In this document: positions 1 through 21,756 of the stretch, piece by piece
Layout: every line of letters starts with the position of its first letter
Numbering within the stretch: position 1 is the stretch's first letter
IMG/VR virus record: IMGVR_UViG_3300008267_009156
Coordinates: 1-22,944 of that record
From: a virus
Reading direction: 5' to 3' (one strand)
DNA length: 22,944 nt
Notes under the pieces: model-generated
Told to the model about the DNA's origin: nothing
The model's database searches: none
Seen by the model: only the letters and a program-made list of their open reading frames with translations
Program-made: the position numbers and the translations under genes

Positions 1-1779
1 TCTACCATAGAAACGGTTGTTAACCATTTTCTTAGCGTATCTCGTCATTATACCTTTGATCGGTGTAAAGTTGAATGGGTTATACATTGTAGGTGTTAAT
101 TGTAGAGGTACATACGGAGCATATACATATCCTGTGTCTAACAAAGATGAACCTTTGTGTCCGATAAGGATTTGGTTAGCTGGGAAGTATGGATCTCTAT
201 ACACTTGGTAACGACCTGCTAATGTACCAACTCTTTCGATACCCATGTTGTACTGATCTTGCTCCGGAGAAGCGTTAGATACGTGGAAGTACTCAAGGTC
301 ATCAAAGATTGCAGAAACTTCAGAAGAAACAACGATCCAGTTAGCTCCACCTCTTAAAGTAGATTTGTGGATTTGTGCTGACAATTGGTTAATTGCTGTA
401 ATCAAAGTTTGATTCCAATCTTTTTGAGTGTATGATGTTGTTTGAGCAATTCTTCTCCATCCGTTGTAATCCCATCTTAGGTTCCAAGCCGCTCCTTTTC
501 TAAGGTCTCTCAAGATTTCTCTATCGATTTCTGCTGCCACTTGCTCAGACAATAATGCTGTTAATTCAGCTTCAGCGTCGATGTTATGGAATGCAGAAAC
601 GTCTTGTGCTAATTCAGGTGACCATTGTGCTCTTAGTTTTCTTTCTGTAACTGATACAGTAACTGACTCAAGGTCAAAAGATACTTCACCAATTTTATCT
701 TCAAATTCTAAGTTCGCATATCTTTTATATACCGCAGTAAATGAAGATGCTGACAATATACCACTTACAGTTGCTCCTGTGTATCCGTCTAATGATGTTG
801 CGTCACAATCAGCACATACCGGACAAGAAAGATCAACTTCTAAAATAATACAACCTTCGTTATTACATACAGTATTGTATGAACCACCATTTCCACTAGG
901 GAATGTTGTGTTTACAGGACTATAAGAAGGGTTAACCATACTTCTACCATATTGTTGTGTAACAACTCTAAATAATAATGGTGTAGTCGAAGAAACAGCA
1001 CATGGGGATGAACCTGCAATAGTTAAACCTGAGTCTTTAATAATTCTTAAATCAGAAAGGAAAGTTTCAGTATCAACTTCAGATCCATCAGGACCAACTA
1101 ATTTACCAGAATCTGCTTGATAAAAATTACAAAGTTTGATTAAAACTTTTCTAACCCCTGTTGTAGATGCGGTGTATGTTGCACTGTTATTTGAATCAAC
1201 TAATGTACCGTTAGACCACTCTAAAACTGTTGTAGTAGCCGTTACCGCAGTAAAGGTACCTTTTGAATAATCAAATAATCCTGGAGGGTTTAAACCTGCT
1301 TCAGCACCTTCATAAAATAAATCATAAAGATTTTTACCATAAGCATCTGCTCCACTATAACCTGTACCATCAGCAGCATTATAACTTGTTGACCCAATTG
1401 GTGCGAAGTGGTTTGTTCCAGCTGCAGTATCTGCGGAGTTATAACCTTGAATTTTAGGTACGAAGTAGAACAATTTACCGATTGGTAAGTTCATTGCTTG
1501 TACAGATACTAAATCATTTGCTAACAATTTAGAGAATACTCTTCTAACGATAGGAAATACTACAGTTTCAAATGAACCTGAACTGTCAGTAGATGCCGCT
1601 TCGTTAATTAGGTGAGACGCTTGGTTTTCATATAATTGTGCCATGTTCTCTTTGATGTGTCCTTTCAAACCATCTAGGAATCCTAATCTATCCCATTTGT
1701 TAATTGTGTCTTCTTTGATAACTTTCAAGTGCTTAAGTCCGATGTTACCTACAAGACCTGATTCTAATAATGCTCCCAT
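1..1779 (-). CDS. 23: Major capsid protein, T4 gp23-like (3' end beyond window)
   Basis: This is the main shell protein of the phage head. 593 codons are open to the window edge, so the C-terminus is missing, though the last residues visible (IKGIMTRYAKKMVNNRFYGR) resemble the end of gp23. Residues about 385-410 (SPELAQDVSAFHNIDAEAEL followed by EIDREILRDLR) match the T4 gp23 stretch around IELAQDLRAVHGMDADAEL. The N-terminus has a helical, charged prepeptide ending HLINE-AAS at residue 60. INE fits the (L/I)xE rule of the prohead protease and sits where T4 gp23 is cut (after residue 65). The protein is longer than T4 gp23 (521 aa) because of an insertion at about residues 190-345 that holds a cysteine cluster. 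Start: ATG after an A-rich leader, no Shine-Dalgarno. It is last in the 17-20-21-22-23 order. Confidence 0.95.
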   Translation of the reverse strand, partial: MGALLESGLVGNIGLKHLKVIKEDTINKWDRLGFLDGLKGHIKENMAQLYENQASHLINEAASTDSSGSFETVVFPIVRRVFSKLLANDLVSVQAMNLPIGKLFYFVPKIQGYNSADTAAGTNHFAPIGSTSYNAADGTGYSGADAYGKNLYDLFYEGAEAGLNPPGLFDYSKGTFTAVTATTTVLEWSNGTLVDSNNSATYTASTTGVRKVLIKLCNFYQADSGKLVGPDGSEVDTETFLSDLRIIKDSGLTIAGSSPCAVSSTTPLLFRVVTQQYGRSMVNPSYSPVNTTFPSGNGGSYNTVCNNEGCIILEVDLSCPVCADCDATSLDGYTGATVSGILSASSFTAVYKRYANLEFEDKIGEVSFDLESVTVSVTERKLRAQWSPELAQDVSAFHNIDAEAELTALLSEQVAAEIDREILRDLRKGAAWNLRWDYNGWRRIAQTTSYTQKDWNQTLITAINQLSAQIHKSTLRGGANWIVVSSEVSAIFDDLEYFHVSNASPEQDQYNMGIERVGTLAGRYQVYRDPYFPANQILIGHKGSSLLDTGYVYAPYVPLQLTPTMYNPFNFTPIKGIMTRYAKKMVNNRFYGR

Positions 1780-3684: not shown

Positions 3685-4395
3685 TTATTTATCCAAATAA
3701 TCGGACAATCTTTTCATTAAGTCAACAGATTTGTTTAGTGGGTTTGATGATAATTCAACATTTTCATGTTCTGTTAATTTTTCTTCATATTTTGGTCTAT
3801 CGTTTTTATTTAAATAAAGGTAAGCCCCTGGTGTTGATGGAGATGAAACTAAGTCAAAACATATCAATTCAAAATCGTCTTGAACCTCATTTTGTTCTCC
3901 TTTTTTAACTAAAGATCCAACACCACGAGAAGATACTCCCATAGTAACACCTTGTCTCATCATATTTGCTGCTATATCACCTTTAGAAGAAACAATACCT
4001 CTTTCGTGAAATCCAGGAGTTGTCAATAACTTAATTTTACCCATTAATACGTTATCTTCCCACCATACTTCTGTGATTAAATGTGCAACTCTGTCTAAGT
4101 CAATAAGTGAAGATTCCGGGTGATTTAATTCAGAAATAGACATTCCTTTATTAATCATTTCTTTATATTTTTCAGCCTCTCTTTTTAATATTTTTTCAGG
4201 ATATACTCTACCATTTCTATTTGGTACCCCATATTTTTGTAAAGTTGCATAAAATACAAATGGTTTTGAATGATCAAGTTGCCCGTATGATTCTCTAATT
4301 ACTTGATTGTTTCTATGTTCGTTTGGATTAATTATCCCCGCATCCCACTCAACTAAAATCCCCTTACCTGTATCGTTTGGTCCTAATATTTTCAT
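3685..4395 (-). CDS. 21: Prohead core protease, T4 gp21-like
   Basis: This serine protease matures the prohead by cutting scaffold, capsid and internal proteins after (L/I)xE. It is 236 aa, close to T4 gp21 (212 aa). Catalytic features visible are His92 in SELNHPESS and the serine in MGVSSRGVG (Ser155/Ser156), followed by Asp181 in CFDLVSSPSTPGAY. These match the His-Ser arrangement of the herpesvirus-assemblin-like phage protease family. The N-terminal GVPNRNGRVYP segment is also typical of the family. An ATATTTAT motif lies 14 bases before the start, overlapping the stop of the preceding gene. Its presence supports reading (L/I)xE sites in gp23 and in the leader-bearing proteins as substrates. 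Confidence 0.93.
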   Translation of the reverse strand: MKILGPNDTGKGILVEWDAGIINPNEHRNNQVIRESYGQLDHSKPFVFYATLQKYGVPNRNGRVYPEKILKREAEKYKEMINKGMSISELNHPESSLIDLDRVAHLITEVWWEDNVLMGKIKLLTTPGFHERGIVSSKGDIAANMMRQGVTMGVSSRGVGSLVKKGEQNEVQDDFELICFDLVSSPSTPGAYLYLNKNDRPKYEEKLTEHENVELSSNPLNKSVDLMKRLSDYLDK

Positions 4396-4408: not shown

Positions 4409-4416
4409 ATAAATAT
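4409..4416 (-). promoter_or_regulatory. ATATTTAT motif upstream of gp21
   Basis: On the minus strand the core ATATTTAT ends 14 bases before the gp21 ATG and overlaps the last base of the upstream stop codon. This is the same core as at the other minus-strand sites. Confidence 0.35.
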
Positions 4417-4865
4417 TATGTAGTTTTGGTTTCTTTTATTTTTGTTTTACTTAATGTAAAATACTTTGAATTTTTTAAGTCGTCAAAATAAATTGAAGAT
4501 ATTATTTTTTTAATTTTTGATTTTAAAATAAAAGACTTGAAATCAATTGTTTTATCATGTACAAATAACGTTATTTCTAAATTTAAAAAACTTTTTTTAT
4601 TCTTTTGTATCCCACTAACCCTTAAATCTAAATCAACAATTTGTTTTCTTTCAAATGTTAAAGTGTCCGTTACTTCTACTAGTGTGTGTTGTATTTGTCT
4701 TTTTATTATCCCCGTAATCCTATTCCAATTTTCTTCTTCATTTAATGGTTCGATCCATGTTTGTAATACCACATAAATTGATTTTAATTCTTTTGAGTCG
4801 ACCGTACCATAGTGACATTTTGCATCATCAAAAATGTTTAATTTTGACGTTTTTCCTTTTTTCAT
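4416..4865 (-). CDS. Hypothetical protein, head-gene cluster
   Basis: This 149-aa protein is not recognised. It is Lys-rich and soluble, with alternating hydrophobic stretches (SIYVVLQTWIEPL, LEITLFVHDK) that suggest a beta-rich core, and it has no signal peptide or membrane segment. It stands between the two-TM protein and gp21 on the same strand, and diverges from the bS21 gene 105 bases away. T4 has small head proteins in this area (gp67, gp68), but no sequence resemblance was seen. The start is the first ATG, with an A-rich leader. Confidence 0.7.
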   Translation of the reverse strand: MKKGKTSKLNIFDDAKCHYGTVDSKELKSIYVVLQTWIEPLNEEENWNRITGIIKRQIQHTLVEVTDTLTFERKQIVDLDLRVSGIQKNKKSFLNLEITLFVHDKTIDFKSFILKSKIKKIISSIYFDDLKNSKYFTLSKTKIKETKTT

Positions 4866-4918
4866 TTTTCATATCTTGAAAGTTTATTGTTTTATAAAAT
4901 ATAATAAAACTTTACATT

Positions 4919-4950
4919 ATTGTCAAAATTTAAAATTTTTCCTACTATTT
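4919..4950 (+). promoter_or_regulatory. Weak Bacteroidota-type promoter candidate for bS21
   Basis: ATTG, then 20 bases, then TACTATTT. This is a degenerate fit to TTTG-N19-TAnnTTTG and would place a start of transcription about 15 bases before the ATG. It is far weaker than the sites at 17123 and 19649. Confidence 0.25.
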
Positions 4951-4970
4951 ATAAATTAAACCAAAAAAAC

Positions 4971-5159
4971 ATGATTATTGTACACGTAAAAAACTCAAAT
5001 TCTTTAGAACAAGCACTTAAAACATATAAGTTTAAAATTTACAAAACAAAACAAATTCAAAAATTACAAGAAAGACAAGAATACAAAAAACCCTCCGTAA
5101 AACGAAGGGCTCAAATTAAAAAGGCTCAATACAAACAGAAAAATCAAATTTCTTCTTGA
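4971..5159 (+). CDS. rpsU: Phage-encoded ribosomal protein bS21 homologue
   Basis: This is a 62-aa small-subunit ribosomal protein. MIIVHVKNSNSLEQALKTYK is the bS21 N-terminus, and YKKPSVKRRAQIKKAQYKQK matches the basic C-terminal helix seen in bS21 of Bacteroidota. bS21 sits on the 30S platform near the 3' end of 16S rRNA. In Flavobacterium johnsoniae, bS21 Tyr54 helps hide the anti-Shine-Dalgarno; this protein has a Tyr at position 54. The ATG at 4971 was chosen over an upstream TTG because it begins exactly at the family start. No Shine-Dalgarno precedes it (leader CCAAAAAAAC). It is the only plus-strand gene inside the minus-strand virion block, and its 3' end overlaps the convergent gene by 16 bases. 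Confidence 0.88.
   Translation: MIIVHVKNSNSLEQALKTYKFKIYKTKQIQKLQERQEYKKPSVKRRAQIKKAQYKQKNQISS
5084..5109 (-). terminator. Rho-independent terminator, inside the bS21 gene on the opposite strand
   Basis: On the minus strand CCCTTCG, loop TTTTA, CGGAGGG is followed by six T. It closes the minus-strand transcript 35 bases past the stop codon at 5144, while on the plus strand the same bases encode bS21 residues about 38-46. Confidence 0.8.
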
Positions 5160-6163: not shown

Positions 6164-7969
6164 TTACTTATTCAATAAGTTATTTAATTTTTCATCAATT
6201 TCTTCCAATTTTATTCTTCCTTTTGATAGGTCAAAAGAATTTGACCCATAATATAAACTATCTTCTAATAGTAAATCTAAATCTTTTCTAACAAATCTTT
6301 CAGGGGTTACTGCTCCCCCACCAGCATCTGGCGGTGGTGGTGGTGCTCCACCTGCATCACCACCCGCTGGTGGTGCCCCTCCACCTGCATCACCTTCAGG
6401 TGCTGCTCCTCCCGCTTCACCTTCTTTTTTACCATATAGGTTATCAATATTATCAAATATCCCCGTTTTTGGTATAACTTCTGCAGTTTTCTCTAATTCA
6501 GCATAAACAGCCCTTTCAATTCTTTGTTGTTGAATGTCTAACCTAATTTCTTCATCTGAAAACCCTAAAATGTGTTTTTTGGCCCAAGAAGCTGAAACAG
6601 GTGCTAAAGACTTTGCGATTTCTGCCGTCGCGTCTTTATATAACGTAATTTTTTCTTTCCAAATTTCTAACGACAATAATTCACCTTGTTTTGAAGGGTT
6701 ATGTAACCCTAAAGTAAAATTAGTAAGTTCATCCTCAAACCCTAATAAAAATAAATGAATAATTGCAATTTTATTTAATTCAGCTATCATTGATTTTTGT
6801 ATTCTATTGATTGTCCTAGCGAATCTAATATCTAGTAAGGATAAATTTTTACCGTCACCAACCGCTTCTTCAAAACCTAAATACGCTTTAGGGATTCTAA
6901 GTGCGGTTACTAATTTCTTTTGTATATATTCAATGTCGGCAATTTCCGCCAAATTTTGTCCAGCAGGTAATGTTTCAATTGGATTTGTTGCTCCTGGGTC
7001 TCTTACAGGTATAAAATAATCTTGATCAACAGCCAACTGATTATATCTCATATCAACGTTACCCGTATTTGGATCTGCAATTTGGTCTCTTTTAAATTTA
7101 TTTGCAACTTTTTGTACATATGCATCCACATCCTTATCATCCATGTTACCAACAAAAACCTTAAATACCCTTCTTTCAGGTGCTCTTGAAACCCTATAAA
7201 CTAACATCGCATCTTCAGATAGTAATAATTGTTTCCATATACGTCTAGCCTTTTCTAACATAGACGTACCATAAGGTAATTTTCTATCATCGCCCAAAAT
7301 TCTAAAATGGGCAATTTCCCATGTATTAAATTCCATGTTTTTTTCTTTCCAAACAAACTTCAATGCATCGTTTTCCATTTCTTGTGAATATTTGTCGGGC
7401 TGGAATCTCATACCTTTTTCTAACCTTTCTATTTGTATGTTTGGTAATTGTTGACAACCAACTACCCCTTTTTCAGGGTCTAATTTTAAATAAACAAAAT
7501 TATCACCAAATTTACATGTGTTTCTTGTCCACATAGGTAAATTTGTATTTATATCTAATTTATTTGTGAATAGGTCGGTTAAAACTTGTTTTATTCTTTT
7601 AGATTCTGAATATACTTTTAAAATTAAACCATCTTGGTCAGGTGTTGTCGATTCCTCAGAATATATATCCAAAGCCGCAGAAATTTCAGGAGTATATTCC
7701 ATAGATTCGTAATCATAGTATGATGCCATTCTTGTTGGTTCATAATAAACCGCCTGTTGATAAAGATTACCTTCGACTTTTTGCCATTGTTTACCAATGT
7801 ACATCGTTTGTTGTGCTTCAAGTTTTTCCCTCTCAAACTCAGCCTTGTCTGTTGTTTTTAAAAGTTGTTTTTTATCGAATTTAAAAACAGGTGTCTGTTG
7901 ATCCATAGTAGATGAAGGTCCGAAAACCTTACCTAATCTTTGCCAAACTGTAATTTTTTGATCTGCCAT
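6164..7969 (-). CDS. 20: Portal vertex protein, T4 gp20-like
   Basis: This forms the dodecameric ring at the head vertex through which DNA enters and leaves. The 601 aa compare with 524 in T4. Typical gp20 segments are visible: RMASYYDYESMEYTPEISAA near residue 80, then ALDIYSEES, TRNTCKFGDNFVYLKLD near 150, LPYGTSMLEKARRIWKQLL near 240, and RIPKAYLGFEEA near 360. An unusual Gly/Pro-rich linker (about residues 514-557, runs such as GGAPPPPPDAGGGA) precedes a final helical 44-residue segment. It follows the terminase gene by 38 bases and starts with ATG after AATAAAAAAATT. Confidence 0.93.
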   Translation of the reverse strand: MADQKITVWQRLGKVFGPSSTMDQQTPVFKFDKKQLLKTTDKAEFEREKLEAQQTMYIGKQWQKVEGNLYQQAVYYEPTRMASYYDYESMEYTPEISAALDIYSEESTTPDQDGLILKVYSESKRIKQVLTDLFTNKLDINTNLPMWTRNTCKFGDNFVYLKLDPEKGVVGCQQLPNIQIERLEKGMRFQPDKYSQEMENDALKFVWKEKNMEFNTWEIAHFRILGDDRKLPYGTSMLEKARRIWKQLLLSEDAMLVYRVSRAPERRVFKVFVGNMDDKDVDAYVQKVANKFKRDQIADPNTGNVDMRYNQLAVDQDYFIPVRDPGATNPIETLPAGQNLAEIADIEYIQKKLVTALRIPKAYLGFEEAVGDGKNLSLLDIRFARTINRIQKSMIAELNKIAIIHLFLLGFEDELTNFTLGLHNPSKQGELLSLEIWKEKITLYKDATAEIAKSLAPVSASWAKKHILGFSDEEIRLDIQQQRIERAVYAELEKTAEVIPKTGIFDNIDNLYGKKEGEAGGAAPEGDAGGGAPPAGGDAGGAPPPPPDAGGGAVTPERFVRKDLDLLLEDSLYYGSNSFDLSKGRIKLEEIDEKLNNLLNK

Positions 7970-8007: not shown

Positions 8008-9783
8008 TTAAACCCTTCCCGAACCGAATAACCATAAATACTTTTCATAGTCACTTTTTGTTAATTGCGACCTACCTATATAATTATTTTGTGTTGGGGT
8101 GGAGACTACTCCCGGATTAAAATTTGTATATTCTCCTGTGTAATTATTTGTCTCAACCGACCACGACTCTAACATAGCCTTTGCCTGTTCGGTTGCTTTT
8201 TCTAATTTAGAAAATGAGGTTTCAGCAACATATAAGGCCATAGCCATTGCCATTATTAAATCGTCATGTTGTCCTTTTTGGTGGTCAGGTTTACCATTAA
8301 TATAAACAAATGTATTTAATTCATTAAATAATCTTTGTGACCTAATTCCAAAATCGTGTCTAAGGGCCTCTTCAAATGCTGCAACAATTTGTACTCTTTT
8401 TGAATTGAAATTAATCCCGGGTATTTTTTCGTTTACCTTTGGATCCCATTTCCATTTATCGGAGGCGTTAACCCCATCTACATATAAATTTTTGTATCCT
8501 AATTCTTGTAATTTTCTTGATGTTGCAACACCCATTCCTCCCGTAATATCGGTAACAATAAATGCATTATACATTGTTGCCCACCTATATGCAATTTCTG
8601 CCACAACATCAGGTGGTACTTTTGCAATATATTCTAAAACTTGTTCCCTTTCATCAAAATCAATAATTATAAATGTTGTAAAATCTTCACTATCACCTCT
8701 GGATACATCCATACCCATAATATATTTATGTCCTTCAATTGGTTCTTTCCATTGCCATAAAACACCACCCATAAATTTATTTTCGGGTTCTCTTAATTGG
8801 TTATCTTTAATCGATTTCATTGTTTCAGGTGGAATAACATTATCCCCCGACCCTAAAAAGTTACATTCAAGTTCCTGTGATATTTTTCTCCTATCAAATT
8901 TTAACTTTTTGGCCATAGCTTCAAACCATGAGCTATATGCCCTATAACCTTGTTCTAATTTTATTTTAATATCTTCAAAATCTCTTTCTTTAATTTTTGT
9001 TTGTGAGTAATCAAGAGTTATTTCGTTGTCTTTGTAATCTGCCCTATTTAACATATAATGTACAATATCCTGACATTTAATAAGTTTTAAGTCTTTTGAA
9101 TAACGTGGATCTCTCCACCAATACATTTCTGTAATTCTAAAGTCATTCATACCTTTTATCGCCTGACTATATATTGAATAATAGATTGGGTCAAATCCGT
9201 TTGGTGTTGAAATTACAATAACTTTACCTCCTGTAGAAAGGGAAGCCATACAAGCAGACCAAAAGTCCTCATCTGCATCAATATACGCCGCCTCATCAAA
9301 TATAAGGATCGTAGGTGTATAACCACGTAAAGCATCTTTTGATGTTGCAACTGCCTTAACTTCACAACCGTTAGTTAATTTAAAGTGTCTTTGTGAATTT
9401 TTTTCGGCAGAAAACCCAACACCCATCCATTTTGGCCATTGATCCACAAATGCCCTAACTTTGTTCGCCATCTCAACCGCGGTGTCAAGTTTGTTTGCAA
9501 TAATTAGAATTTTTTCTGGTTTTTCTTTTTTAGCAAAAACCAATCTTTTTGATGCCCATGCAGATGTCACTGTAGAAACACCAGCCTGACGGTATTTTAG
9601 TGCTATGTTCTCATCACATTCGTCATAATCTTTTACAAGCGTGACTTGATCGTTAAATAACTCTAACGGAACATATTTTGATTGTGTGTTATCGTAAGTT
9701 TGTAAATATGTTTTAAGTGCGTAAGGAGTGTCGTTTACACATTTAGCGTATTCCAATAATGCTTGTTCCCTTGATAAAGACAT
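8008..9783 (-). CDS. 17: Terminase large subunit, T4 gp17-like
   Basis: This is the DNA-packaging ATPase and nuclease motor, 591 aa (T4 gp17 is 610). ATPase domain: adenine/Walker A region ALKYRQAGVST (residues 61-71), Walker B ILIFDEAAYID with Asp163-Glu164, and coupling motif ISTPNG (191-196). The Walker A has Val where Lys is usual, with a basic Lys/Arg just before, a known variant among terminases. RNase H-like nuclease domain: Asp359 in IMGMDVSRGD, Asp412 in VTDITGG and Asp507/508 in HDDLIMAMAMAL, so all three acidic positions are intact. It starts 3 bases after the DUF3008 gene stop, suggesting coupled translation. Confidence 0.96.
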   Translation of the reverse strand: MSLSREQALLEYAKCVNDTPYALKTYLQTYDNTQSKYVPLELFNDQVTLVKDYDECDENIALKYRQAGVSTVTSAWASKRLVFAKKEKPEKILIIANKLDTAVEMANKVRAFVDQWPKWMGVGFSAEKNSQRHFKLTNGCEVKAVATSKDALRGYTPTILIFDEAAYIDADEDFWSACMASLSTGGKVIVISTPNGFDPIYYSIYSQAIKGMNDFRITEMYWWRDPRYSKDLKLIKCQDIVHYMLNRADYKDNEITLDYSQTKIKERDFEDIKIKLEQGYRAYSSWFEAMAKKLKFDRRKISQELECNFLGSGDNVIPPETMKSIKDNQLREPENKFMGGVLWQWKEPIEGHKYIMGMDVSRGDSEDFTTFIIIDFDEREQVLEYIAKVPPDVVAEIAYRWATMYNAFIVTDITGGMGVATSRKLQELGYKNLYVDGVNASDKWKWDPKVNEKIPGINFNSKRVQIVAAFEEALRHDFGIRSQRLFNELNTFVYINGKPDHQKGQHDDLIMAMAMALYVAETSFSKLEKATEQAKAMLESWSVETNNYTGEYTNFNPGVVSTPTQNNYIGRSQLTKSDYEKYLWLFGSGRV

Positions 9784-9786
9784 CCA

Positions 9787-10347
9787 TTATCTTTTAATAC
9801 TTTTAATTGTTCTTAATAATTCACCTTTTGTTGTATGTGGAGGTAAATAATCTTCAATAAGTTTTAAAATGTTTTCTTCAAGTTTCTTTACATTTTCTTT
9901 TGATTTTACTTTTTTTGGTAATCCTTTGTGTTTTGTAGATGCAAAATCTTCTAAATCCTTTTCTGACATTTTATTAGCCATATCTTTTACTGATTTAGAA
10001 ACTTTTGATTTTGAGGTATCTCCTCTTTTAACAGAAAGAGCTAATCCCATAATTTTTTGTTGTTGTGTTGATTTAGACCTTTCAGTAACTTCTGTCTCAA
10101 TAACCTCAATACCACCAGGTACTTGTTTAACAACACTATTATTTTGAACAGGAACACCTTTTTGAGCATCATCACCAGTAAGTGTTGTGACTGTTTTTGT
10201 TTCAGTTTTTTTAGTTACCGCTTCTTTGGTTTCTTTTTTTACCTTTTCATAAAGTAAAGATATTTGATTTCTATTAAAACTTGAAATCGTTTTCATAGAA
10301 AACCCCTCGCGTAATAACGTCTCAATTTTGTAATCAATATGTTTCAT
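9787..10347 (-). CDS. DUF3008-domain protein upstream of terminase
   Basis: This 186-aa basic protein starts at the ATG at 10347; a GTG one codon earlier is less likely. Residues about 92-150 (QQQKIMGLALSVKRG, then VKDMANKMSEKDLEDFASTK and HKGLPKKV) match the DUF3008 pattern recalled from phage and bacterial proteins, whose function is unknown. The N-terminal 35 residues form a separate helical segment (FSMKTISSFNRNQISLLYEK), followed by a low-complexity Thr/Lys linker. T4 places the small terminase subunit gp16 directly before gp17, so this gene occupies the gp16 slot, but no helix-turn-helix or gp16 likeness was seen. It overlaps the previous gene by 14 bases. Confidence 0.75.
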   Translation of the reverse strand: MKHIDYKIETLLREGFSMKTISSFNRNQISLLYEKVKKETKEAVTKKTETKTVTTLTGDDAQKGVPVQNNSVVKQVPGGIEVIETEVTERSKSTQQQKIMGLALSVKRGDTSKSKVSKSVKDMANKMSEKDLEDFASTKHKGLPKKVKSKENVKKLEENILKLIEDYLPPHTTKGELLRTIKSIKR

Positions 10348-10747
10348 CACTTATTAAATTTTTTTCCCAGTTTAGTATGACATCTCGTTCATATAATTTA
10401 TCATTAACGGTTTCTACACTATCACCATAATTAAAAACTAAACGTTTTCTTTTATGTATTAAAATTTCATCACTGTTTGAGTTTTCCCAAGCCAATGCAA
10501 TAACACCATCAACCGCATCAAAAACACCAAAAAAATCAGAGTTTTGAATTAAATTTAAACTTATTTCTGAATTTTTTAAAACCCCAACTTTTTTTATATA
10601 ATTAACATTTGGTGGGTATGGTTTACCTGAAGCAGGTTCAGCGTCCCAATCATCTCCCCAAACATCGTCCAAATCTGAAAATATAAATTCATATATATTA
10701 TCCCCTTTATAATTTGGCCCTAATTCATTTACATATACTAAAATCAT
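10334..10747 (-). CDS. Hypothetical protein in packaging operon
   Basis: This 137-aa acidic protein is not recognised by function. It contains the striking segment ELGPNYKGDNIYEFIFSDLD followed by DVWGDDWDAEPASGKPYPP, rich in Trp and Asp, then a predicted beta-rich region (FFGVFDAVDGVIALAWEN). It overlaps the gene before it by ATGA and the gene after it by 14 bases, so it is translationally linked to the packaging genes. A structural or packaging accessory role is inferred from position alone. Confidence 0.75.
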   Translation of the reverse strand: MILVYVNELGPNYKGDNIYEFIFSDLDDVWGDDWDAEPASGKPYPPNVNYIKKVGVLKNSEISLNLIQNSDFFGVFDAVDGVIALAWENSNSDEILIHKRKRLVFNYGDSVETVNDKLYERDVILNWEKNLISDETY

Positions 10748-13963: not shown

Positions 13964-14422
13964 TTAATCAGGAATATTTAAAATGTTCCATTTTTCAGGA
14001 TAAGGGACGGTAATTCCTCTTCTTATAATCTCCTGAGATCCTTTTTTAATTGATCCAAGAATTGATGATGTTGCACAATTTGAACCACCTAACCCAACAA
14101 TATATGCGTTAATCATATCGTATTCGCTATCGACATCACTCATTTCAGAATTAAAATATGCACACCAACCTTTACCTGAATGATTTGTGATTTCGGTACT
14201 AAATTCTTTTAAATCATCTCTGCTTTTCATAGTTAGTACTGCAGCTAATGCTGCCGGTTCATCATCATCAACATTTACACCGAGTATTGTTTTTTCAAGA
14301 GCATGTATAAAAGATTTAGCCGCGGTTGTACCGACACCTTCATTCAATAATCTTGATTCTTTAACAACTCTTCTTACAAGTCTTGTAAGATCTGATTCTG
14401 TTAATCTAATAATTCTTTTCAT
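13964..14422 (-). CDS. Leader A protein, putative internal capsid protein
   Basis: This 152-aa protein is of unknown function. It begins MKRIIRLTESDLTRLVRRVV, the same leader as the genes at 20905 and 22259. Candidate prohead-protease sites are LTE (residues 7-9) and LLNE-G at residue 28. The rest has two cysteines, one in KGWCAYF and one in GSNCATSS, and lacks a signal peptide or membrane segment. It stands alone between a bidirectional terminator and an ATATTTAT motif 32 bases before its start. A role as a packaged head protein is inferred from the shared leader; another possibility is a virion-surface protein using the leader as an anchor. Confidence 0.75.
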   Translation of the reverse strand: MKRIIRLTESDLTRLVRRVVKESRLLNEGVGTTAAKSFIHALEKTILGVNVDDDEPAALAAVLTMKSRDDLKEFSTEITNHSGKGWCAYFNSEMSDVDSEYDMINAYIVGLGGSNCATSSILGSIKKGSQEIIRRGITVPYPEKWNILNIPD

Positions 14423-14542: not shown

Positions 14543-14908
14543 TTATTTTAAACTTCTAATTTTATCTCTTATTTTGATTGCATTTTCAAAATCTTGTTTT
14601 TTTACACATTCATCTAGTTCTTCATTAAGTTTTATAAGTTCTTCTTTATTTTTTTCTAAATTTTTAATTTTGTCTCTTAACTCTACAGCTTCCTCAAAAT
14701 TTTGTTCATCGACAGCAATATCTAATTTTTGTTTTAATAAAGATATTTCATCTTGTTTATTAAGTCCCCCTCGTTTATTTGTGATGTAGGTAAATGAGAT
14801 ACTACCATCTTCAGACTTATAGTTTTTCCTTTCCCAATTATCACCATTAAAAAATGGATCTGACGACCATAGTTCGTTAAATAGTTTTTCAAAATTCCTA
14901 CTAAACAT
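14543..14908 (-). CDS. UVR-motif protein, possible ClpC adaptor (McsA-like)
   Basis: This 121-aa protein has two UVR motifs, QNFEEAVELRDKIKNLE (residues 69-85) and QDFENAIKIRDKIRSLK (105-121), at the end of a helical C-terminal half. The first 50 residues (with FFNGDNWERKNYKSEDGSIS) form a separate small domain of unknown kind. UVR motifs mediate contacts in UvrB, McsA and the middle domain of ClpC, and McsA works with ClpC. Here the gene is divergent from a ClpC-like gene that carries its own UVR motif, so an adaptor that docks UVR to UVR is a reasonable inference. It has no zinc-binding CXXC pairs, unlike bacterial McsA. Confidence 0.75.
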   Translation of the reverse strand: MFSRNFEKLFNELWSSDPFFNGDNWERKNYKSEDGSISFTYITNKRGGLNKQDEISLLKQKLDIAVDEQNFEEAVELRDKIKNLEKNKEELIKLNEELDECVKKQDFENAIKIRDKIRSLK

Positions 14909-15084: not shown

Positions 15085-17121
15085 ATGATTGAATCATTTG
15101 ACGAATCAGAAAAATCTAAAAATAAAAATACTGAGACTAAAACAAAAACACCTGTTTTAGATAACTTTTCAAGAGACCTTATAAAACTAGCAGAAGAAGG
15201 AAAGTTAGATCCCGTTGTTGGTAGAGAAAATGAAATTAATAGAATTGCTCAAATTCTTTCAAGAAGAAAAAAAAATAACCCTATTATATTAGGAGAACCG
15301 GGTTGTGGTAAAACGGCAATAGTTGAAGGTTTAGCAAAGAAAATATTTGAGGGTGATTGCCCACAAAATTTATCAGGTAAAAGAATTGTTTCGTTAGATA
15401 TGACATCAATTGTTGCTGGAACAAAATATAGAGGACAATTTGAAGAAAGAATGAAAGTTATTATTGAAGAATTATATAATAACCCAGATATTATAATTTT
15501 TATTGATGAGATTCACACTATGATTGGTGCTGGAAATTCATCAGGGTCTATGGATGCGTCAAATATATTCAAACCGGCACTATCAAGAGGTGAATTACAA
15601 TGTATTGGTGCAACTACTTTAGAAGAATATAGAAAAAACATTGAAAAGGACGGAGCACTTGAAAGAAGATTTCAAAAAGTAATGGTTGACCCATCAACAA
15701 AAGAAGAGACCTTACAGATACTTCAAAATTCAAAAGATAGATATGAAAACCACCATAAAGTAACATATAGTGATGATATATTAAAACTATGTGTTGAATT
15801 GGCTGATAGGTATATCACAGATAGAGAGTTTCCTGATAAGGCGTTTGATATTATTGATGAGGTTGGTGCAAGATCTCAAGTAGAAATTAAATTACCTGAA
15901 ATTATTGAGGACCTAAAAAAACAAGCCCAAGAAATCAAAGAAGAAAAAGTTAGAGTGATAAACAGTCAGAGATATGAGGAGGCTGCAAATCTTAGAGATA
16001 AAGAAAGAAAAGTTTTAAATGATTTAGAAAGAGAAAAGGCTGAATTTGAAAAAAATAGAAATTTATTCAAAAGAGAAGTTACCGATGAGATTGTATATGA
16101 TGTTGTATCACTAATGACAAAAATACCAATTTCTAAAATTTCAACAGACGAAACTGAACAATTAAAAACTTTAAAAGATACCTTATCAACAAAAGTCATT
16201 GGTCAAGATGATGCTGTTGCAAAAATATCAAGATCAATTCAAAGAAATAAGGTCGGATTAAACGACCCTAAAAAACCAATATTTAGTGGATTATTAATTG
16301 GTAATTCGGGTGTTGGTAAAACTGAGTTGGCAAAACAACTTGCAAAACATATGTTCAATACAGAAGATGCACTTATTAGATTAGACATGAGTGAATTTTC
16401 AGATAAAATTGCAACATCAAAATTAACAGGAACATCTCCAGGTTATGTTGGTTATGAAGATGGTTCACCATTTTTAAATAAAATTAAAAATAAACCATAC
16501 TCAGTTATTTTATTAGATGAGATTGAAAAGGCCCATCCTGAAATATTTAATGTATTTTTACAAATGTTAGATGAAGGGTTTTTGACTGACGGACATGGAA
16601 GAAAAATTAATTTCAAAAATTGTATAATTTTAATGACATCAAACGTTGGGACAAAGGTGGTTCAAGATTTTGGTACCGGTGTTGGATTTGCAACAAACTC
16701 TAAAATTGAGAAAAAAGAAGAAGAGATAAAATCTTTATTAGAAAAAGAATTATTTAAAAAGTTTGCACCTGAGTTCATTAATAGATTTGATGAGATCATA
16801 TACTTCAAAGACTTAAACGAAAATGATTTAATGAAAATTGTTGATTTAGAACTTGAAAAAGTATATGAAAGGGTGTTATCAATTGATTTTGAATTAGAAG
16901 TTGATGAGACATTAAAAAAACATATTATAAGTGTTGGGACCGATACTAGGTTTGGTGCTCGAATATTAAAAAGAACCATTCAAAAGTGGGTAGATGATGC
17001 AGTTACTGATAAAGTAATTAGTGATAACCCTGAAAAAGGATCTAAATTTATTCTATCATATAATGAAAAAGATAAAAAAACTGAGGTTAAAATAAAAAAA
17101 CCGACAAAACGTAAAAAATAG
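15085..17121 (+). CDS. ClpC-like AAA+ unfoldase lacking the Clp N domain
   Basis: This 678-aa double AAA+ protein belongs to the ClpA/B/C group. A short charged N-terminus (1-23) replaces the usual double Clp N repeat of about 140 residues. D1 has Walker A GEPGCGKT (70-77), Walker B IIIFIDEIH (Asp141-Glu142) and ERRF. The short middle region (about 270-330) carries a UVR motif (SQRYEEAANLRDKERKV), as in ClpC and unlike the long ClpB coiled coil. D2 has Walker A GNSGVGKT (406-413), Walker B ILLDEIEKAHPE and INRFDE. A GVGF sequence (532-535) sits where ClpC holds its ClpP-binding VGF loop, so docking to host ClpP is plausible. A basic tail ends the protein. No terminator was seen directly after it; the next promoter begins 2 bases later. 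Confidence 0.93.
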   Translation: MIESFDESEKSKNKNTETKTKTPVLDNFSRDLIKLAEEGKLDPVVGRENEINRIAQILSRRKKNNPIILGEPGCGKTAIVEGLAKKIFEGDCPQNLSGKRIVSLDMTSIVAGTKYRGQFEERMKVIIEELYNNPDIIIFIDEIHTMIGAGNSSGSMDASNIFKPALSRGELQCIGATTLEEYRKNIEKDGALERRFQKVMVDPSTKEETLQILQNSKDRYENHHKVTYSDDILKLCVELADRYITDREFPDKAFDIIDEVGARSQVEIKLPEIIEDLKKQAQEIKEEKVRVINSQRYEEAANLRDKERKVLNDLEREKAEFEKNRNLFKREVTDEIVYDVVSLMTKIPISKISTDETEQLKTLKDTLSTKVIGQDDAVAKISRSIQRNKVGLNDPKKPIFSGLLIGNSGVGKTELAKQLAKHMFNTEDALIRLDMSEFSDKIATSKLTGTSPGYVGYEDGSPFLNKIKNKPYSVILLDEIEKAHPEIFNVFLQMLDEGFLTDGHGRKINFKNCIILMTSNVGTKVVQDFGTGVGFATNSKIEKKEEEIKSLLEKELFKKFAPEFINRFDEIIYFKDLNENDLMKIVDLELEKVYERVLSIDFELEVDETLKKHIISVGTDTRFGARILKRTIQKWVDDAVTDKVISDNPEKGSKFILSYNEKDKKTEVKIKKPTKRKK

Positions 17122-17170: not shown

Positions 17171-17782
17171 ATGGTTCTTATGAAAACTTTTCTTTTTTCT
17201 TTATTTTTATTTTTATCTTTGTTTTCTGTTTCTCAAACACAACAAGAGATTCAATCATACTTTAATGAAGTTGCGTATGGTAGTGATCAAATGAAAGGTG
17301 ATAATACTAATAAAATAACAAAGTGGGATAAAGATATTAAAATGTATTTGGATGGTTACTACACTAACCAAGATTTGATCAATGTAAAAAGTTTAATAAC
17401 AGAATTAAATACTTTAATTGGTAATATAAAAATTACAATTGTAAAAAATAAATCCGAAGCAAATTCAATTGTATTTTTTGGTGATTTTAACACTTTTAAT
17501 TCTAAATACCTATACAATCAATCACCATATATTTATTGTAATGGATATTGTCTAATATACGGTTTTGATGATAGTATTATTATTGATAATGTAAAAATTT
17601 TTATTAGAAATGATGTTTCATCTTTAGATAAAAAACACGCAATAATTGAAGAAATTACACAATCGTTAGGTTTAGCAAACGACTCTTGGTCTTATGAAGA
17701 TAGTATGTTTTATGAAGGTTATTCAACAACACAACAATTATCTAAAATGGATAAAGAAGTAATTAGAATGTTATATAAATAA
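17171..17782 (+). CDS. Secreted DUF2927-like protein, copy 1
   Basis: This 203-aa protein has an N-terminal signal peptide (MKTFLFSLFLFLSLFSVSQT), so it should leave the cytoplasm of the infected cell. The mature part ends with the DUF2927 hallmarks: HAIIEEITQSLGLANDSW, then DSMFYEGY, then LSKMDKEVIRMLYK. The H-x3-E-E arrangement recalls metallopeptidases, but no zinc site is proved. Two cysteines (YCNGYC) may form a disulfide. A second ATG at 17180 (MKTF) gives a more typical signal peptide and a longer untranslated leader, and may be the real start. It has a perfect host-type promoter and ends in a bidirectional terminator. It is a paralogue of the gene at 19697. Confidence 0.85.
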   Translation: MVLMKTFLFSLFLFLSLFSVSQTQQEIQSYFNEVAYGSDQMKGDNTNKITKWDKDIKMYLDGYYTNQDLINVKSLITELNTLIGNIKITIVKNKSEANSIVFFGDFNTFNSKYLYNQSPYIYCNGYCLIYGFDDSIIIDNVKIFIRNDVSSLDKKHAIIEEITQSLGLANDSWSYEDSMFYEGYSTTQQLSKMDKEVIRMLYK

Positions 17783-17814: not shown

Positions 17815-18759
17815 TTATTGCCATTTTAGGTTTGTACAAAAATATTCGGCATGTTTATTTGCTATTTCGTCAGGTGTTTTACCTATATCATCAAAAGAAT
17901 ACATATTATACCCCCCTTTTTTTGCTAAAGCAACAACCATACGACCAAAACCACCGCCATCTGAAACCCATCTACTTGATGGTACTGTTGGTTCTGAACT
18001 TGTCGACCATTTTTTAAATTTACAAGAATACTTTGCAGTTCTACAATTAATAGAATACTCATTTTCACCAGCTTTCATAAGAAAATCTTTGTTTGTTGTT
18101 TTGTCAGGACCATTACAAATGGTACTTACTGTGACAACTTCATCACCTTGTTTAGATCTATCAAAATCAAGATCTGTGTCAAATAAATAATATCCAATGT
18201 CATTATCCGCCTGACCAGATGGTTTAGTTAATTTTTTAGGTTCGTTTGACGGTGTTGTTGTCGTCGGTGTTGTTGTTGTCGTTTTTTGAGTTGCCGCTGG
18301 TTGGGTTAATTTATTACATAATGTAGTTACTATACTTTGCGCTATGTCTTTAATTTTTTTTCCTCCCTCATTTTTGTGAACTGCTAATCCGTTAGGATCG
18401 TATTTTAATACTATATCTTCAAAAGGATTTGAACCCGTTATCCAACCAGTTTTACAAAAATAATCAGTATCTGTTTTTTTACCAACTGTGACAAAATTAG
18501 TAACAAAATCATTTGACGGAAATATTCTAATACTAGCCTTAGAATCGGTTGGACTATCAATATTTATAGTATAATTAAAATAATCAGTCAAAACTGAATT
18601 CATTGCCGCAATTTTTTGATTTTCAAAAGCTTGAGCCGAAGTTGTTGTTTTTTGTGTTGCCGGTTTTTCAGTTAAGTACTGTCGGTTTGATGCTCTATAA
18701 TGCATCTCTAAAATCCTTCTTTTTTCAGATTCATTTAAACTTGATAAAATATTTTTCAT
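17815..18759 (-). CDS. Leader B protein with two YxC modules
   Basis: This 314-aa protein begins with leader B (MKNILSSLNESEKRRILEMH, then YRASNRQYLTE). LTE at 29-31 is a candidate gp21 cleavage site. The first module (about 45-145) contains TDYFCKTGW, NPFED and a closing IAQSIVTTLC, and is clearly like the C-terminal module of the gene at 19604. A Thr-rich linker (TTTTTPTTTTPSNEP) leads to a second module with several cysteines that ends IANKHAEYFCTNLKWQ, echoing the first module's end. There is no signal peptide or membrane segment. It follows the gene at 18777 by 17 bases of TAAA repeats. The function is unknown; an internal or head-associated virion protein is inferred from the leader. 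Confidence 0.75.
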   Translation of the reverse strand: MKNILSSLNESEKRRILEMHYRASNRQYLTEKPATQKTTTSAQAFENQKIAAMNSVLTDYFNYTINIDSPTDSKASIRIFPSNDFVTNFVTVGKKTDTDYFCKTGWITGSNPFEDIVLKYDPNGLAVHKNEGGKKIKDIAQSIVTTLCNKLTQPAATQKTTTTTPTTTTPSNEPKKLTKPSGQADNDIGYYLFDTDLDFDRSKQGDEVVTVSTICNGPDKTTNKDFLMKAGENEYSINCRTAKYSCKFKKWSTSSEPTVPSSRWVSDGGGFGRMVVALAKKGGYNMYSFDDIGKTPDEIANKHAEYFCTNLKWQ

Positions 18760-18777
18760 GTTATTTATTTATTTATT
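18669..18777 (-). repeat. Leader B DNA repeat, copy 1
   Basis: About 109 bases covering the leader B codons plus the TAAA-repeat spacer are nearly identical to 21648-21756, with only a few mismatches. The flanking coding sequence differs, so the leader moved or was copied as a unit. Confidence 0.85.
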
Positions 18778-19604
18778 TATTTTTGTGGAAATCCTACCGC
18801 CGCACAAACGTTTGTTACGAATGTTTGTGCAATAGATGCTGGTGTTTTTCCCGATTCAGTCTTATATACTGCGTAATTATCTTTTTTGTATTCTAGACTA
18901 AAAGTTTCAAAAGGGTTTGGCCCACCCCAACCAGTTTTACAATAATAAATTTCATTATTTTTGGCACCAACCTTTACAAAATTTTGATTTGCCGAATTTT
19001 TTAAAGTTATATGTAACGCAGGATTTTGTGGTGTTGATGAGCCTTCTGCGGATAATTCACCCATATTAAAATAATCACTATCACCATATTTAGAAATAGC
19101 GTTAAACATCTTACTTTTAAATTGTTCTTTTGCTATTTGAGCAGGTGTTTTGGCCTTTGCCGCAGTTGTAGCAACCGGTTTAGGTGCTAATTTTGCGGAT
19201 GCCTCACATTGTCTTTTTGCTAATGGTTCCATTCTTTCCACAACATTCCACAAAGGTTCGTAAATATAATTTTCATCATCTGGATTACCCTTTTCACCGA
19301 ATTTTGTGTAATTATAGATTCCAATGTTTGGAAATTTATCACTCCAATATTTACCAGGATTATTACATATATATTCTAAATTACCTTCTTTACTTTGGTA
19401 TTGGGGTAAAAGAGTAAAAGAAATTGCTGTTGGCTTATCTGTTCCCAATACTTCAGCCTTTGTTGCATATACTGTTGCTAATTCAGCCGCAGTTATATTA
19501 CTTTTAAACCCTTCAGTAAGGTACTGTTTTCCTGATGCCCTATAATGCATCTCAAGAATTCTTCTTTTTTCACCTTCATTAAGGTTTGTTAAAATATTTT
19601 TCAT
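18777..19604 (-). CDS. Leader B protein with a YxC module
   Basis: This 275-aa protein starts with leader B (NLNEGEKRRILEMHYRASG, then KQYLTE-G), the likely protease site being after Glu31. The middle part (ITAAELATVYATKAEVLG, then YICNNPGKYW, then KRQCEAS) follows a pattern of a hairpin, a Y-x-C and a later Cys. An Ala/Lys/Pro linker joins it to a C-terminal module (EIYYCKTGW, NPFET, SIAQTFVTNVC) shared with the gene at 17815. It is first in a two-gene minus-strand unit. An ATTTAT motif lies 18 bases before the start. No known family was recognised. Confidence 0.75.
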   Translation of the reverse strand: MKNILTNLNEGEKRRILEMHYRASGKQYLTEGFKSNITAAELATVYATKAEVLGTDKPTAISFTLLPQYQSKEGNLEYICNNPGKYWSDKFPNIGIYNYTKFGEKGNPDDENYIYEPLWNVVERMEPLAKRQCEASAKLAPKPVATTAAKAKTPAQIAKEQFKSKMFNAISKYGDSDYFNMGELSAEGSSTPQNPALHITLKNSANQNFVKVGAKNNEIYYCKTGWGGPNPFETFSLEYKKDNYAVYKTESGKTPASIAQTFVTNVCAAVGFPQK

Positions 19605-19696: not shown

Positions 19697-20305
19697 ATGA
19701 CTTTTATGAAATCTTTTCTTTTTTCTTTATTAATGTTAATAACATTTTATTCTGTTTCTCAAACACAAGAAGATATTCAATCATACTTTAATGAAGTTGC
19801 GTATGGTAGTGAAGAAATGGAAGGACCAAAAAGAAAATTATTGTTAAAATGGGATAAAGAGATTAAGATGTATTTGGACGGTTATTATACCAATCAAGAT
19901 TTGATAAACGTTAAAAATATAATATCGGAGCTTAGTGTTTTAAGTGGTATTAAAATAACAATTATTAAAAATAAATCAGAAGCAAATTCAATAGTCTATT
20001 TTGGTGATTTCAATACATTTAATTCAAAATATTTATACAATCAATTACCATATATAAATTGTTATGGGTATTGCACAATATATGGTTTTGATGATAGTAT
20101 TTTTATTTCTGAAGTTAAAATATTCATCAAAAATGACGTATCATCGTTAGATAAAAAACACGCAATAATTGAAGAAATTACACAATCTTTAGGTTTGGCA
20201 AATGATTCTTGGACTTATGAAGATAGTATGTTTTATGAAGGTTATACCACAACTCAACAATTATCTAAAATTGATAAAGAAGTTATCAGAATGTTATATA
20301 AATAA
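19697..20305 (+). CDS. Secreted DUF2927-like protein, copy 2
   Basis: This 202-aa paralogue of the product at 17171 has the same signal peptide layout (MKSFLFSLLMLITFYSVSQT) and the same C-terminal motifs: HAIIEEITQSLGLANDSWTY, DSMFYEGY and LSKIDKEVIRMLYK. Differences cluster after the signal peptide (EEMEGPKRKLLLKWDKE) and in the first third, while the C-terminal half is nearly unchanged, so that half is under stronger constraint. The cysteine pair (NCYGYC) is kept. An internal ATG at 19706 may be the true start, as in copy 1. It has its own perfect host-type promoter and a bidirectional terminator. Confidence 0.85.
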   Translation: MTFMKSFLFSLLMLITFYSVSQTQEDIQSYFNEVAYGSEEMEGPKRKLLLKWDKEIKMYLDGYYTNQDLINVKNIISELSVLSGIKITIIKNKSEANSIVYFGDFNTFNSKYLYNQLPYINCYGYCTIYGFDDSIFISEVKIFIKNDVSSLDKKHAIIEEITQSLGLANDSWTYEDSMFYEGYTTTQQLSKIDKEVIRMLYK

Positions 20306-20335: not shown

Positions 20336-20905
20336 TTATTGTTTTGTTAATTTAACTTGTTGTATTTTTTTCTGTGATGCCTGACATTGTAATTTACAAG
20401 CCGCCATAAATTCATTGTATTCAGTACTACCTTTTTTGAAATATAGGTCGTAATATTGTGCGCTTCCCGCTACGTTAGTACCTTCTGTTACACAAAAATA
20501 TGTCGGTGTTGCTATTAAATTTTGCATTCTTGGGTCCTCTTTCGGGGTTTTCATTTCAATATAAACCGTACTAACAATTTTATTACCTTCAGCTCCGCTA
20601 ACATTGACTTTAGATCCCCCAAAAGCTGCGAGTTTATCATTAATAACACTACTTCTCCAATCAACCATATTACTAACGTAGGTATCTAAAGGTGTTGTAC
20701 CAGCACCAGCATTTGCTGCTGTACCTGCTTGTGCCGTTGCACAATGTTTAGTAAAAAACCCATCAGCAATACCGGTAAACCCATCAACTGTCTTTTTTGT
20801 ACAATCAACTGGTAGTGAAATATTTTTGGGTGTGTTTTGTTCAGATATTACTCTTTTTATTAATCTAGTAAGTTCTGATTCTGTTAATCTAATTTTTCTT
20901 TTCAT
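20336..20905 (-). CDS. Leader A protein with CTKKTV segment and YxC module
   Basis: This 189-aa protein starts with leader A (RLTESELTRLIKRVISE-Q), with candidate cuts after LTE (residue 9) and ISE (residue 22). It is followed by a segment nearly identical to the gene at 22259 (DCTKKTVDGFTGIADGFF, then HCATAQAGT). The C-terminal module (SSVINDKLAAFGGSKVNVSG, EGNKIVSTVYIEMK, TYFCV, YYDLYFKKGS, CKLQC) is homologous to that of the leader B protein at 20917. So it combines leader A with a module that elsewhere carries leader B. It is last in the three-gene unit 22259-20336. Function unknown. Confidence 0.75.
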   Translation of the reverse strand: MKRKIRLTESELTRLIKRVISEQNTPKNISLPVDCTKKTVDGFTGIADGFFTKHCATAQAGTAANAGAGTTPLDTYVSNMVDWRSSVINDKLAAFGGSKVNVSGAEGNKIVSTVYIEMKTPKEDPRMQNLIATPTYFCVTEGTNVAGSAQYYDLYFKKGSTEYNEFMAACKLQCQASQKKIQQVKLTKQ

Positions 20906-20916: not shown

Positions 20917-21738
20917 TTATTTTCCTTTAATTTTTAATCCTGATGCTTTACATTGTTTTGCGCCTGCTGCCATCATTAATTTATAAGGGTCCGAATTGTA
21001 TTTAAAATATTTTTGATAATACCTTAAACTATTCGCAGCAATCTCCTCAGTAGGACGGGCGGTACATGCATAAGTTGGCTGACTACCGTCTTTATTTAAA
21101 TCAACCTTCATTTGAAACGTAACACTAAAAATAAATTTATTACCAATATCTCCTGAAACATTAATAGATGTTGCACTAAATGCGGATAATAAATCATTAA
21201 TTACTGAAGTAGTGTAATCTATCATACCTTTTGTTAAGGATTCTGTTGGTTGTTGTTGTTCTTTTCCTGGTGTTGTTGTATTAGCCACAGGTTTAGTTTG
21301 TCCACCTGTTTGATTATTTGTAACAATTCCTTTTGATTTATTAAATTCAGCCTGTGAGTGATCACATTGTTTTAAACCTAATTCTTTTAATTTATTAACA
21401 TCTAGACTTGGATATGCCTTTGTTTGTGTTGTTGCCCCTCTAAAAGTTTCTTGACCTGTACTTGCAGCTCTCCTACAATAGACACTAGGTGTAGCAACTC
21501 CTTGATTAGTACCTGGATTTAATTTTTCTTGAGCCATTTTAAAAACAATAATATCTGGACCAACCGCATTGTCAACTAACACTTCAACAGAAGATGCACC
21601 TAAAGCGGATAGTTCGGCACTAGTAATTATTACATCTTTAACACCTTCAGTTAAATACTGTCGGTTTGATGCTCTATAATGCATCTCTAAAATCCTTCTT
21701 TTTTCGGATTCGTTTAAACTTGATAAAATATTTTTCAT
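20917..21738 (-). CDS. Leader B protein with YxC modules
   Basis: This 273-aa protein begins with leader B, identical to that of the gene at 17815 (LNESEKRRILEMHYRAS, then NRQYLTE-G). The first module (IITSAELSALGASSVEVLVD, then SVYCRRAAS, then LKQCDHSQ) resembles the middle of the gene at 18777. A Thr/Gln/Pro linker follows, then a C-terminal module (TTSVINDLLSAFSATSINVSG, NKFIFSVTFQMK, TYACTARP, YYQKYFKYNS, AKQCKAS) homologous to that of the leader A protein at 20336. It starts 17 bases after the stop of the gene at 21756, through the same TAAA-repeat spacer seen at 18760-18776. Function unknown; head-internal protein inferred. Confidence 0.75.
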   Translation of the reverse strand: MKNILSSLNESEKRRILEMHYRASNRQYLTEGVKDVIITSAELSALGASSVEVLVDNAVGPDIIVFKMAQEKLNPGTNQGVATPSVYCRRAASTGQETFRGATTQTKAYPSLDVNKLKELGLKQCDHSQAEFNKSKGIVTNNQTGGQTKPVANTTTPGKEQQQPTESLTKGMIDYTTSVINDLLSAFSATSINVSGDIGNKFIFSVTFQMKVDLNKDGSQPTYACTARPTEEIAANSLRYYQKYFKYNSDPYKLMMAAGAKQCKASGLKIKGK

Positions 21739-21756
21739 GTTATTTATTTATTTATT
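21648..21756 (-). repeat. Leader B DNA repeat, copy 2
   Basis: This is the partner of the repeat at 18669-18777. The spacer reads TAAATAAATAAATAAC just before ATG on the minus strand and carries stop codons in all three frames. Confidence 0.85.

Follow-up and report, generated by a model that had tools for sequence, protein, structure and literature searches.

A phage ribosomal protein bS21 that keeps Tyr54, has a leader without a Shine-Dalgarno sequence and is predicted to stand outside the rpsU feedback of its host

Results

A bS21 gene among phage head genes

The window is the whole stretch of DNA that was analysed, a virus record of 22,944 nucleotides (IMG/VR IMGVR_UViG_3300008267_009156), in which a gene for ribosomal protein bS21 lies on the strand opposite to a cluster of head genes (Table 1). 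Its product, MIIVHVKNSNSLEQALKTYKFKIYKTKQIQKLQERQEYKKPSVKRRAQIKKAQYKQKNQISS, is the sole match to the PF01165 profile within this 22.9-kb record (E 1.2e-11, 44.5 bits, cut-off 27) and also matches TIGR00030 (E 3.6e-10, 39.5 bits, cut-off 28.95). A phmmer comparison with Flavobacterium johnsoniae bS21 (7jil chain z) aligned residues 1-57 on 1-57 without gaps (E 4.7e-10). A TTG farther upstream, at 4920, would give a protein of 79 aa; it was dropped as a start because F. johnsoniae bS21 begins in line with the ATG at 4971.

As the alignment to 7jil is ungapped, Tyr54 of the phage protein corresponds to Tyr54 of F. johnsoniae bS21. The first-pass annotation had claimed that this residue is kept, with the proviso that it might fall elsewhere once compared with the protein of the host; against F. 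johnsoniae bS21 the two tyrosines share a column, with no shift. The anti-Shine-Dalgarno-sequestering bS21 of the Bacteroidia is marked by Tyr54, or another aromatic residue, stacking on A1534; by alignment, the phage protein has the tyrosine, which may stack there as well. A few phage relatives have His or Phe at position 54. The traits by which Chen et al. (2022) characterized phage bS21, an aromatic residue 54 and divergence at 21, 23 and 28, are all found in the window protein (Tyr54, Phe21, Ile23 and Gln28), and the phage bS21 is under purifying selection (median dN/dS ~0.09 over 696 pairs of relatives).

Table 1. Features of the bS21 locus and of the neighbouring head genes in the window.
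Feature	Position	Strand	Remarks
Major capsid protein Gp23	1..1779	-	Runs past the window end
Prohead protease (Peptidase_S77)	3685..4395	-	Profile match
Divergent neighbour, 149 aa	4416..4865	-	Conserved, no family
Promoter-like TTGACA-N17-TATATT, belonging to the divergent gene	4898..4926	-	Conserved with or without bS21
TATTTATA element	4946..4953	+	25 nt before the bS21 ATG; likely phage late promoter element
Leader CCAAAAAAAC, without Shine-Dalgarno	4961..4970	+	From pairing energy with the 16S tail
bS21 (ribosomal protein S21) gene	4971..5159	+	62 aa, ATG start; profile matches and alignment
Tyr54 codon TAC	5130..5132	+	Equivalent to F. johnsoniae bS21 Tyr54 in the ungapped alignment to 7jil
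Convergent neighbour, 89 aa	5144..5413	-	No family; by eye, two stretches are hydrophobic
Portal protein (Portal_T4, gp20)	6164..7969	-	Profile match
Large terminase	8008..9783	-	Profile search

The convergent neighbour, possibly the gene that Chen and colleagues called bS21_CN, overlaps the 3' end of the bS21 gene by 16 nt (5144-5159). This overlap is kept in 75 of 79 loci and may constrain the C-terminus of bS21, which is conserved within clades (Chen et al., 2022; PMC9723584).

Relatives were also defined through the adjacent protease, as the 74 viral loci that encode a close relative of it and extend far enough upstream. The bS21 gene is present in 69 of these, always on the opposite strand, and missing in the other five, among them a record of 281 kb that has no PF01165 match at all; since some relatives do without it, the gene is useful to the lineage without being essential. 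Searched against the phage collection, the terminase has a best match of 29-30% identity. For the set of Chen et al. (2022; PMC9723584), membership would call for a terminase within about 70% similarity of theirs. No Rfam families or tRNA genes were found in the window.

Several other genes of the window deserve mention. The gene at 15085-17121(+) encodes a Clp/Hsp100-type ATPase that has no N-domain and, by eye, a VGF loop as in ClpP-binding ClpC, and the one at 14543-14908(-) a small McsA-like protein with two UVR motifs. McNutt et al. (2023; PMC9976891) speculated on phage bS21 and on host bS21 as the target of a protease encoded by a phage. Near-identical N-termini (MKNILSSLNESEKRRILEMHYRAS... 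and MKRKIRLTESDLTRLIKRV...) recur in two sets of otherwise different proteins, encoded at 17815-18759(-), 18777-19604(-) and 20917-21738(-), and at 13964-14422(-), 20336-20905(-) and 21756-22259(-); they are reminiscent of the capsid-targeting leaders of internal head proteins of T4. The genes at 17171-17782(+) and 19697-20305(+) are duplicated DUF2927 genes, 79% identical.

The phage leader lacks the Shine-Dalgarno sequence of Flavobacterium rpsU

Pairing was scored as the best duplex energy between the last 25 nt of a leader (-25 to -1) and the 16S 3' tail AUCACCUCCUUUCU, a scale that reproduces the published value near -20 for F. johnsoniae rpsU; pairing below -13 kcal/mol was taken as the mark of an rpsU autoregulated through its Shine-Dalgarno (SD). 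The bS21 leader of the window reaches +1.6 kcal/mol at best, on the far side of this limit, in agreement with the earlier statement that it has no SD. Values from +1.6 to -6.2 kcal/mol were obtained for 79 related phage bS21 leaders, compared with -17.5 to -23.3 kcal/mol before rpsU in Flavobacterium and its close kin (80 of 80 leaders). Counting distinct leaders, uncorrected for relatedness, the medians are -19.6 for 25 host and 0.8 for 34 phage leaders.

In the wider set found through the protease, one of 49 distinct bS21 leaders has a strong SD (L505, -12.2), and several contain a weak AAAAGG. Absence of an SD is thus near-universal in the bS21 family of these phages. Other phage families with a Bacteroidota-type bS21 are mostly without an SD as well, save for one group at -9.6 (L329-L332) and the 735-kb phage LR756501 at -12.1 (LR756501.1, L359). 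These two and L505 combine an SD-like leader with a retained Tyr54, which makes them natural contrasts for the idea of an escape from feedback.

The same absence extends to the rest of the phage: energies of -6 kcal/mol or lower occur in 28 of 409 phage leaders in the SD window and in 62 of 409 in a mock window (p 1e-12). Because phage genes generally avoid an SD, its absence before bS21 is the phage norm, and the contrast lies with host rpsU; almost every gene of the phage and of its presumed hosts is without an SD, rpsU of the host being the exception. A strong SD before 10334-10747(-) (-12.3) was set aside as not conserved: homologues score -6.3, -3.8 and -12.8, and the sequence falls within the end of the preceding coding region.

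The F. johnsoniae rpsU has an extended SD and is best translated by ribosomes without bS21; replacing Tyr54 (Y54A) raises the output of an SD-driven rpsU'-gfp about 3-fold, and ribosomes without the C-terminus of bS21 perform poorly on SD-less mRNA (McNutt et al., 2023; PMC9976891). How widely a strong SD precedes rpsU determines how far the contrast with the phage gene can be carried. The earlier statement that host rpsU has a strong SD is correct for Flavobacterium and close kin, as seen above, and does not extend to the class, where only 17 of 110 leaders of rpsU, the bS21 gene, reach -13 kcal/mol; the same value is reached in 27 of the 30 best-scoring genes of a Flavobacteriaceae sample and in 5 of 30 of an order sample. 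A Flavobacterium-like host is presumed; it is supported only moderately by our trees and is backed by one CRISPR spacer and by gene similarity (Chen et al., 2022; PMC9723584).

A candidate late promoter element that accompanies bS21

Of 78 bS21 leaders of the family, 77 carry the TATTTATA element at a distance of 25-29 nt from the ATG, within a block of conserved columns, and TATTTAT precedes bS21 in all 49 distinct leaders of the wider set. When the leaders of other genes were examined in the window and three large relatives, no 8-mer was more enriched than ATATTTAT (67 sense against 15 antisense occurrences among 409 leaders, p 5e-9). The sense motif reads ATATTTAT/TATTTATA and not TATAAATA, the type of element that a gp55-type sigma factor recognises in T4-type late promoters. 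The TATTTAT element is likely the late promoter of bS21, and the mRNA leader is perhaps 10-16 nt long, too short for the longest SD helices.

In three loci with the same neighbours (L500, L514 and L522) bS21 is gone, and the TATTTAT motif with it, while the divergent TTGACA-type promoter is retained. For this reason the latter is assigned to the divergent gene, and we rejected a conserved TTGTCAA as part of the bS21 promoter: it is TTGACA on the other strand and persists without bS21. In two further loci (L469 and L471) the opposite-strand slot between the portal-side genes and the divergent gene holds another small ORF of 71-84 aa, lipoprotein-like and basic, with a TATATTTATA element of its own. 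The position of bS21 is thus a cargo slot, and as the motif is lost with bS21 and the replacement brings its own TATATTTATA, the TATTTAT motif travels with the cargo gene. A second leader motif, AATAAAC/ATAAACTT (28 sense against 5 antisense; 14 against 0), precedes the major capsid protein gene, 14543-14908 and 4416-4865, in the window and in relatives.

Discussion

A probably late bS21, predicted to stand outside the host feedback

The explanation that we favour, and that as a whole we consider somewhat more probable than its negation, is that the product of 4971-5159 is a functional phage copy of a Bacteroidota-type bS21 which, made late from an SD-less mRNA, keeps ribosomes replete with bS21 while standing outside the host feedback. 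The gene would probably be transcribed late, from its own promoter element and on the strand opposite the head genes, and its mRNA would be translated by an SD-independent route, like nearly all genes of this phage. The protein most likely enters 30S subunits of the host, where its Tyr54 would keep the anti-SD folded away; ribosomes would stay bS21-replete and SD-blind, presumably the state best suited to SD-less mRNAs such as those of the phage. Because its mRNA is without an SD, synthesis of phage bS21 should not fall as ribosomes fill, whereas that of the SD-controlled host rpsU should. Since rpsU of Flavobacterium and its close kin has a very strong SD and the phage mRNA has none, phage bS21 should lie outside the host feedback. 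We regard this escape as a sound prediction from the leaders, conditional on a Flavobacterium-like host because the SD contrast varies with the host. The entry of another phage bS21 into E. coli 70S ribosomes (Mizuno et al., 2019; PMC6375957) speaks for the explanation as a whole, as do the published effects of Y54A and the joint transcription of bS21 and head genes; the fall of translation to about 5% in that E. coli experiment, the relatives that have no bS21, the one with a strong SD and those with His or Phe at 54 speak against it.

The existence of specialised ribosomes in bacteria is disputed, and few cases are as clear as rpsU of Flavobacterium. With Tyr54 but no regulatory SD, the phage bS21 is a natural means of probing this feedback loop from outside, through its effect on host rpsU and on SD-less mRNAs.

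A second, SD-less bS21 in the Flavobacteriaceae

The absence of the SD may be inherited, and it is at the same time the phage default. At least two bS21 genes score over the cut-off in 26 of 60 Flavobacteriaceae genomes sampled, and wherever both kinds were read, in 14 genomes, a single copy with a strong SD (-17 or lower) is accompanied by copies with none (-5.5 to +2.6); such an SD-less second bS21 beside a strong-SD first copy is seen in the genomes L424-L463. McNutt et al. (2023; PMC9976891) do not name Bacteroidota in their list of organisms with extra bS21 genes. The second copies are chromosomal, with an rpoD-like gene for a primary sigma factor, named by eye, adjoining in two of seven loci read (L454 and L457). 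They are altered at residues 23, 24 and 27 and keep Tyr54 in 16 of 18 cases, and Lys27 is found in 26 of 26 phage proteins, 15 of 18 second copies and none of 41 SD-controlled copies.

In trees, phage bS21 clusters with these second copies (support 86/76, and 94/86 in a reduced tree). The trees rest on ~64 columns and have long stems. A tree without the second copies and other phage families placed the phage clade near other Bacteroidia, with weak support, and this changed when the kin were added. The SD-less second bS21 as nearest cellular kin of phage bS21 is thus a lead, not proof; if it holds, the loss of the SD does not have to be explained as an adaptation on the part of the phage.

The chances seem to us about even that the escape was never selected, the missing SD reflecting the phage default together with ancestry shared with, or descent from, a second bS21 of this kind. 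The mechanism would be the same as in the explanation we favour and the difference would lie in why, being outside the feedback becoming a by-product. Depletion of the SD window across phage genes, the two-gene arrangement of many Flavobacteriaceae, the grouping in the trees and the common Lys27 speak for it; set against this are the short alignment, the long stems and the other, weakly supported placement, and Lys27 could be convergent. The SD-less second genes hint that the hosts, too, work with a comparable pair of bS21 genes. A further reading, which we consider doubtful, would make phage bS21 an active, feedback-proof regulator: by filling 30S subunits it would deprive host rpsU of the bS21-free ribosomes on which its translation depends, so turning rpsU down and keeping the cell in the SD-blind state used by phage mRNAs, and its ancestor would be one of the little-noticed SD-less second bS21 genes, with a similar job in uninfected cells.

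Leaders and the choice between mRNAs

The model of Chen et al. (2022) and of the first-pass annotation, that phage bS21 shifts the choice of ribosomes toward phage mRNAs over those of the host, appears unlikely to us. In its favour are phage-specific changes at residues 21, 23, 24, 27 and 28, all on the N-terminal side of the protein; according to Chen et al. (2022; PMC9723584), the mRNA passes by this half. Changes at 23, 24 and 27 are not confined to phages, as the SD-less host copies are altered there too. The leaders are also alike: A makes up a mean fraction of 0.49 at -20 to -1 in 383 phage genes and of 0.44 in 950 host genes (background 0.39 and 0.37), and both groups are SD-less and use an A near -12/-13, so that leaders alone cannot clearly separate phage from host mRNA. 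The phage bS21 leaders are richer in A (0.61, and 0.70 in the window). The suggestion that the phage favours its own A-rich leaders finds no support in these values.

It is quite improbable that phage bS21 serves to slow host translation or has an extra-ribosomal role such as packaging into the virion: a Pelagibacter phage bS21 poisons E. coli ribosomes, entering 70S and lowering translation to about 5% (Mizuno et al., 2019; PMC6375957), and virion packaging was raised as a possibility by Chen et al. (2022; PMC9723584), but the poisoning was seen in a distant host, and ribosomes must be active for a gene to be expressed late, together with those of the capsid.

Comparison with known systems

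Much of the setting is already published: Chen et al. (2022) described the phage group and its gene order, the kept Tyr54, the late expression of bS21 and its substitution in ribosomes, and McNutt et al. (2023) the rpsU feedback. In 47 freshwater genomes of up to 331 kb with Bacteroidetes hosts, Chen et al. (2022, ISME Commun.; PMC9723584) reported a reverse-strand bS21 flanked by two hypothetical genes, in a cluster of terminase, portal, protease and capsid genes, with Tyr54 in 54 of 61 proteins and another aromatic-ring residue in the rest. They found bS21 and head genes to be highly transcribed together in lake metatranscriptomes and proposed that phage bS21 replaces that of the host. The window resembles these phages in its opposite-strand bS21, hypothetical flanking genes, head cluster, aromatic residue 54 and divergent residues 21, 23 and 28. 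Their main text holds no analysis of leader, SD or promoter motif of the phage gene, which is added here, and in the literature searched we found neither an account of phage-bS21 leaders or of their lack of an SD nor an experiment on any Bacteroidota phage bS21. New in the present work are the near-universal absence of the SD, the TATTTAT element and the kinship with SD-less second bS21 genes.

With F. johnsoniae rpsU (PMC9976891) the phage gene has in common a Tyr54 bS21 of the type that helps to fold away the anti-SD, whereas the F. johnsoniae leader pairs at about -20 kcal/mol through an extended SD and the phage leader has none. The bS21 of Pelagibacter phage HTVC008M (Mizuno et al., 2019; PMC6375957) is phage-encoded too and has been shown in 70S ribosomes, but is of the alphaproteobacterial type and belongs to another host. 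The second bS21 of Flavobacteriaceae is like that of the phage in its missing SD, its Tyr54, its changes at residues 23-27 and, mostly, its Lys27, and unlike it in being chromosomal, in the RpoD-like sigma gene beside two of the seven copies read and in having no head cluster around it.
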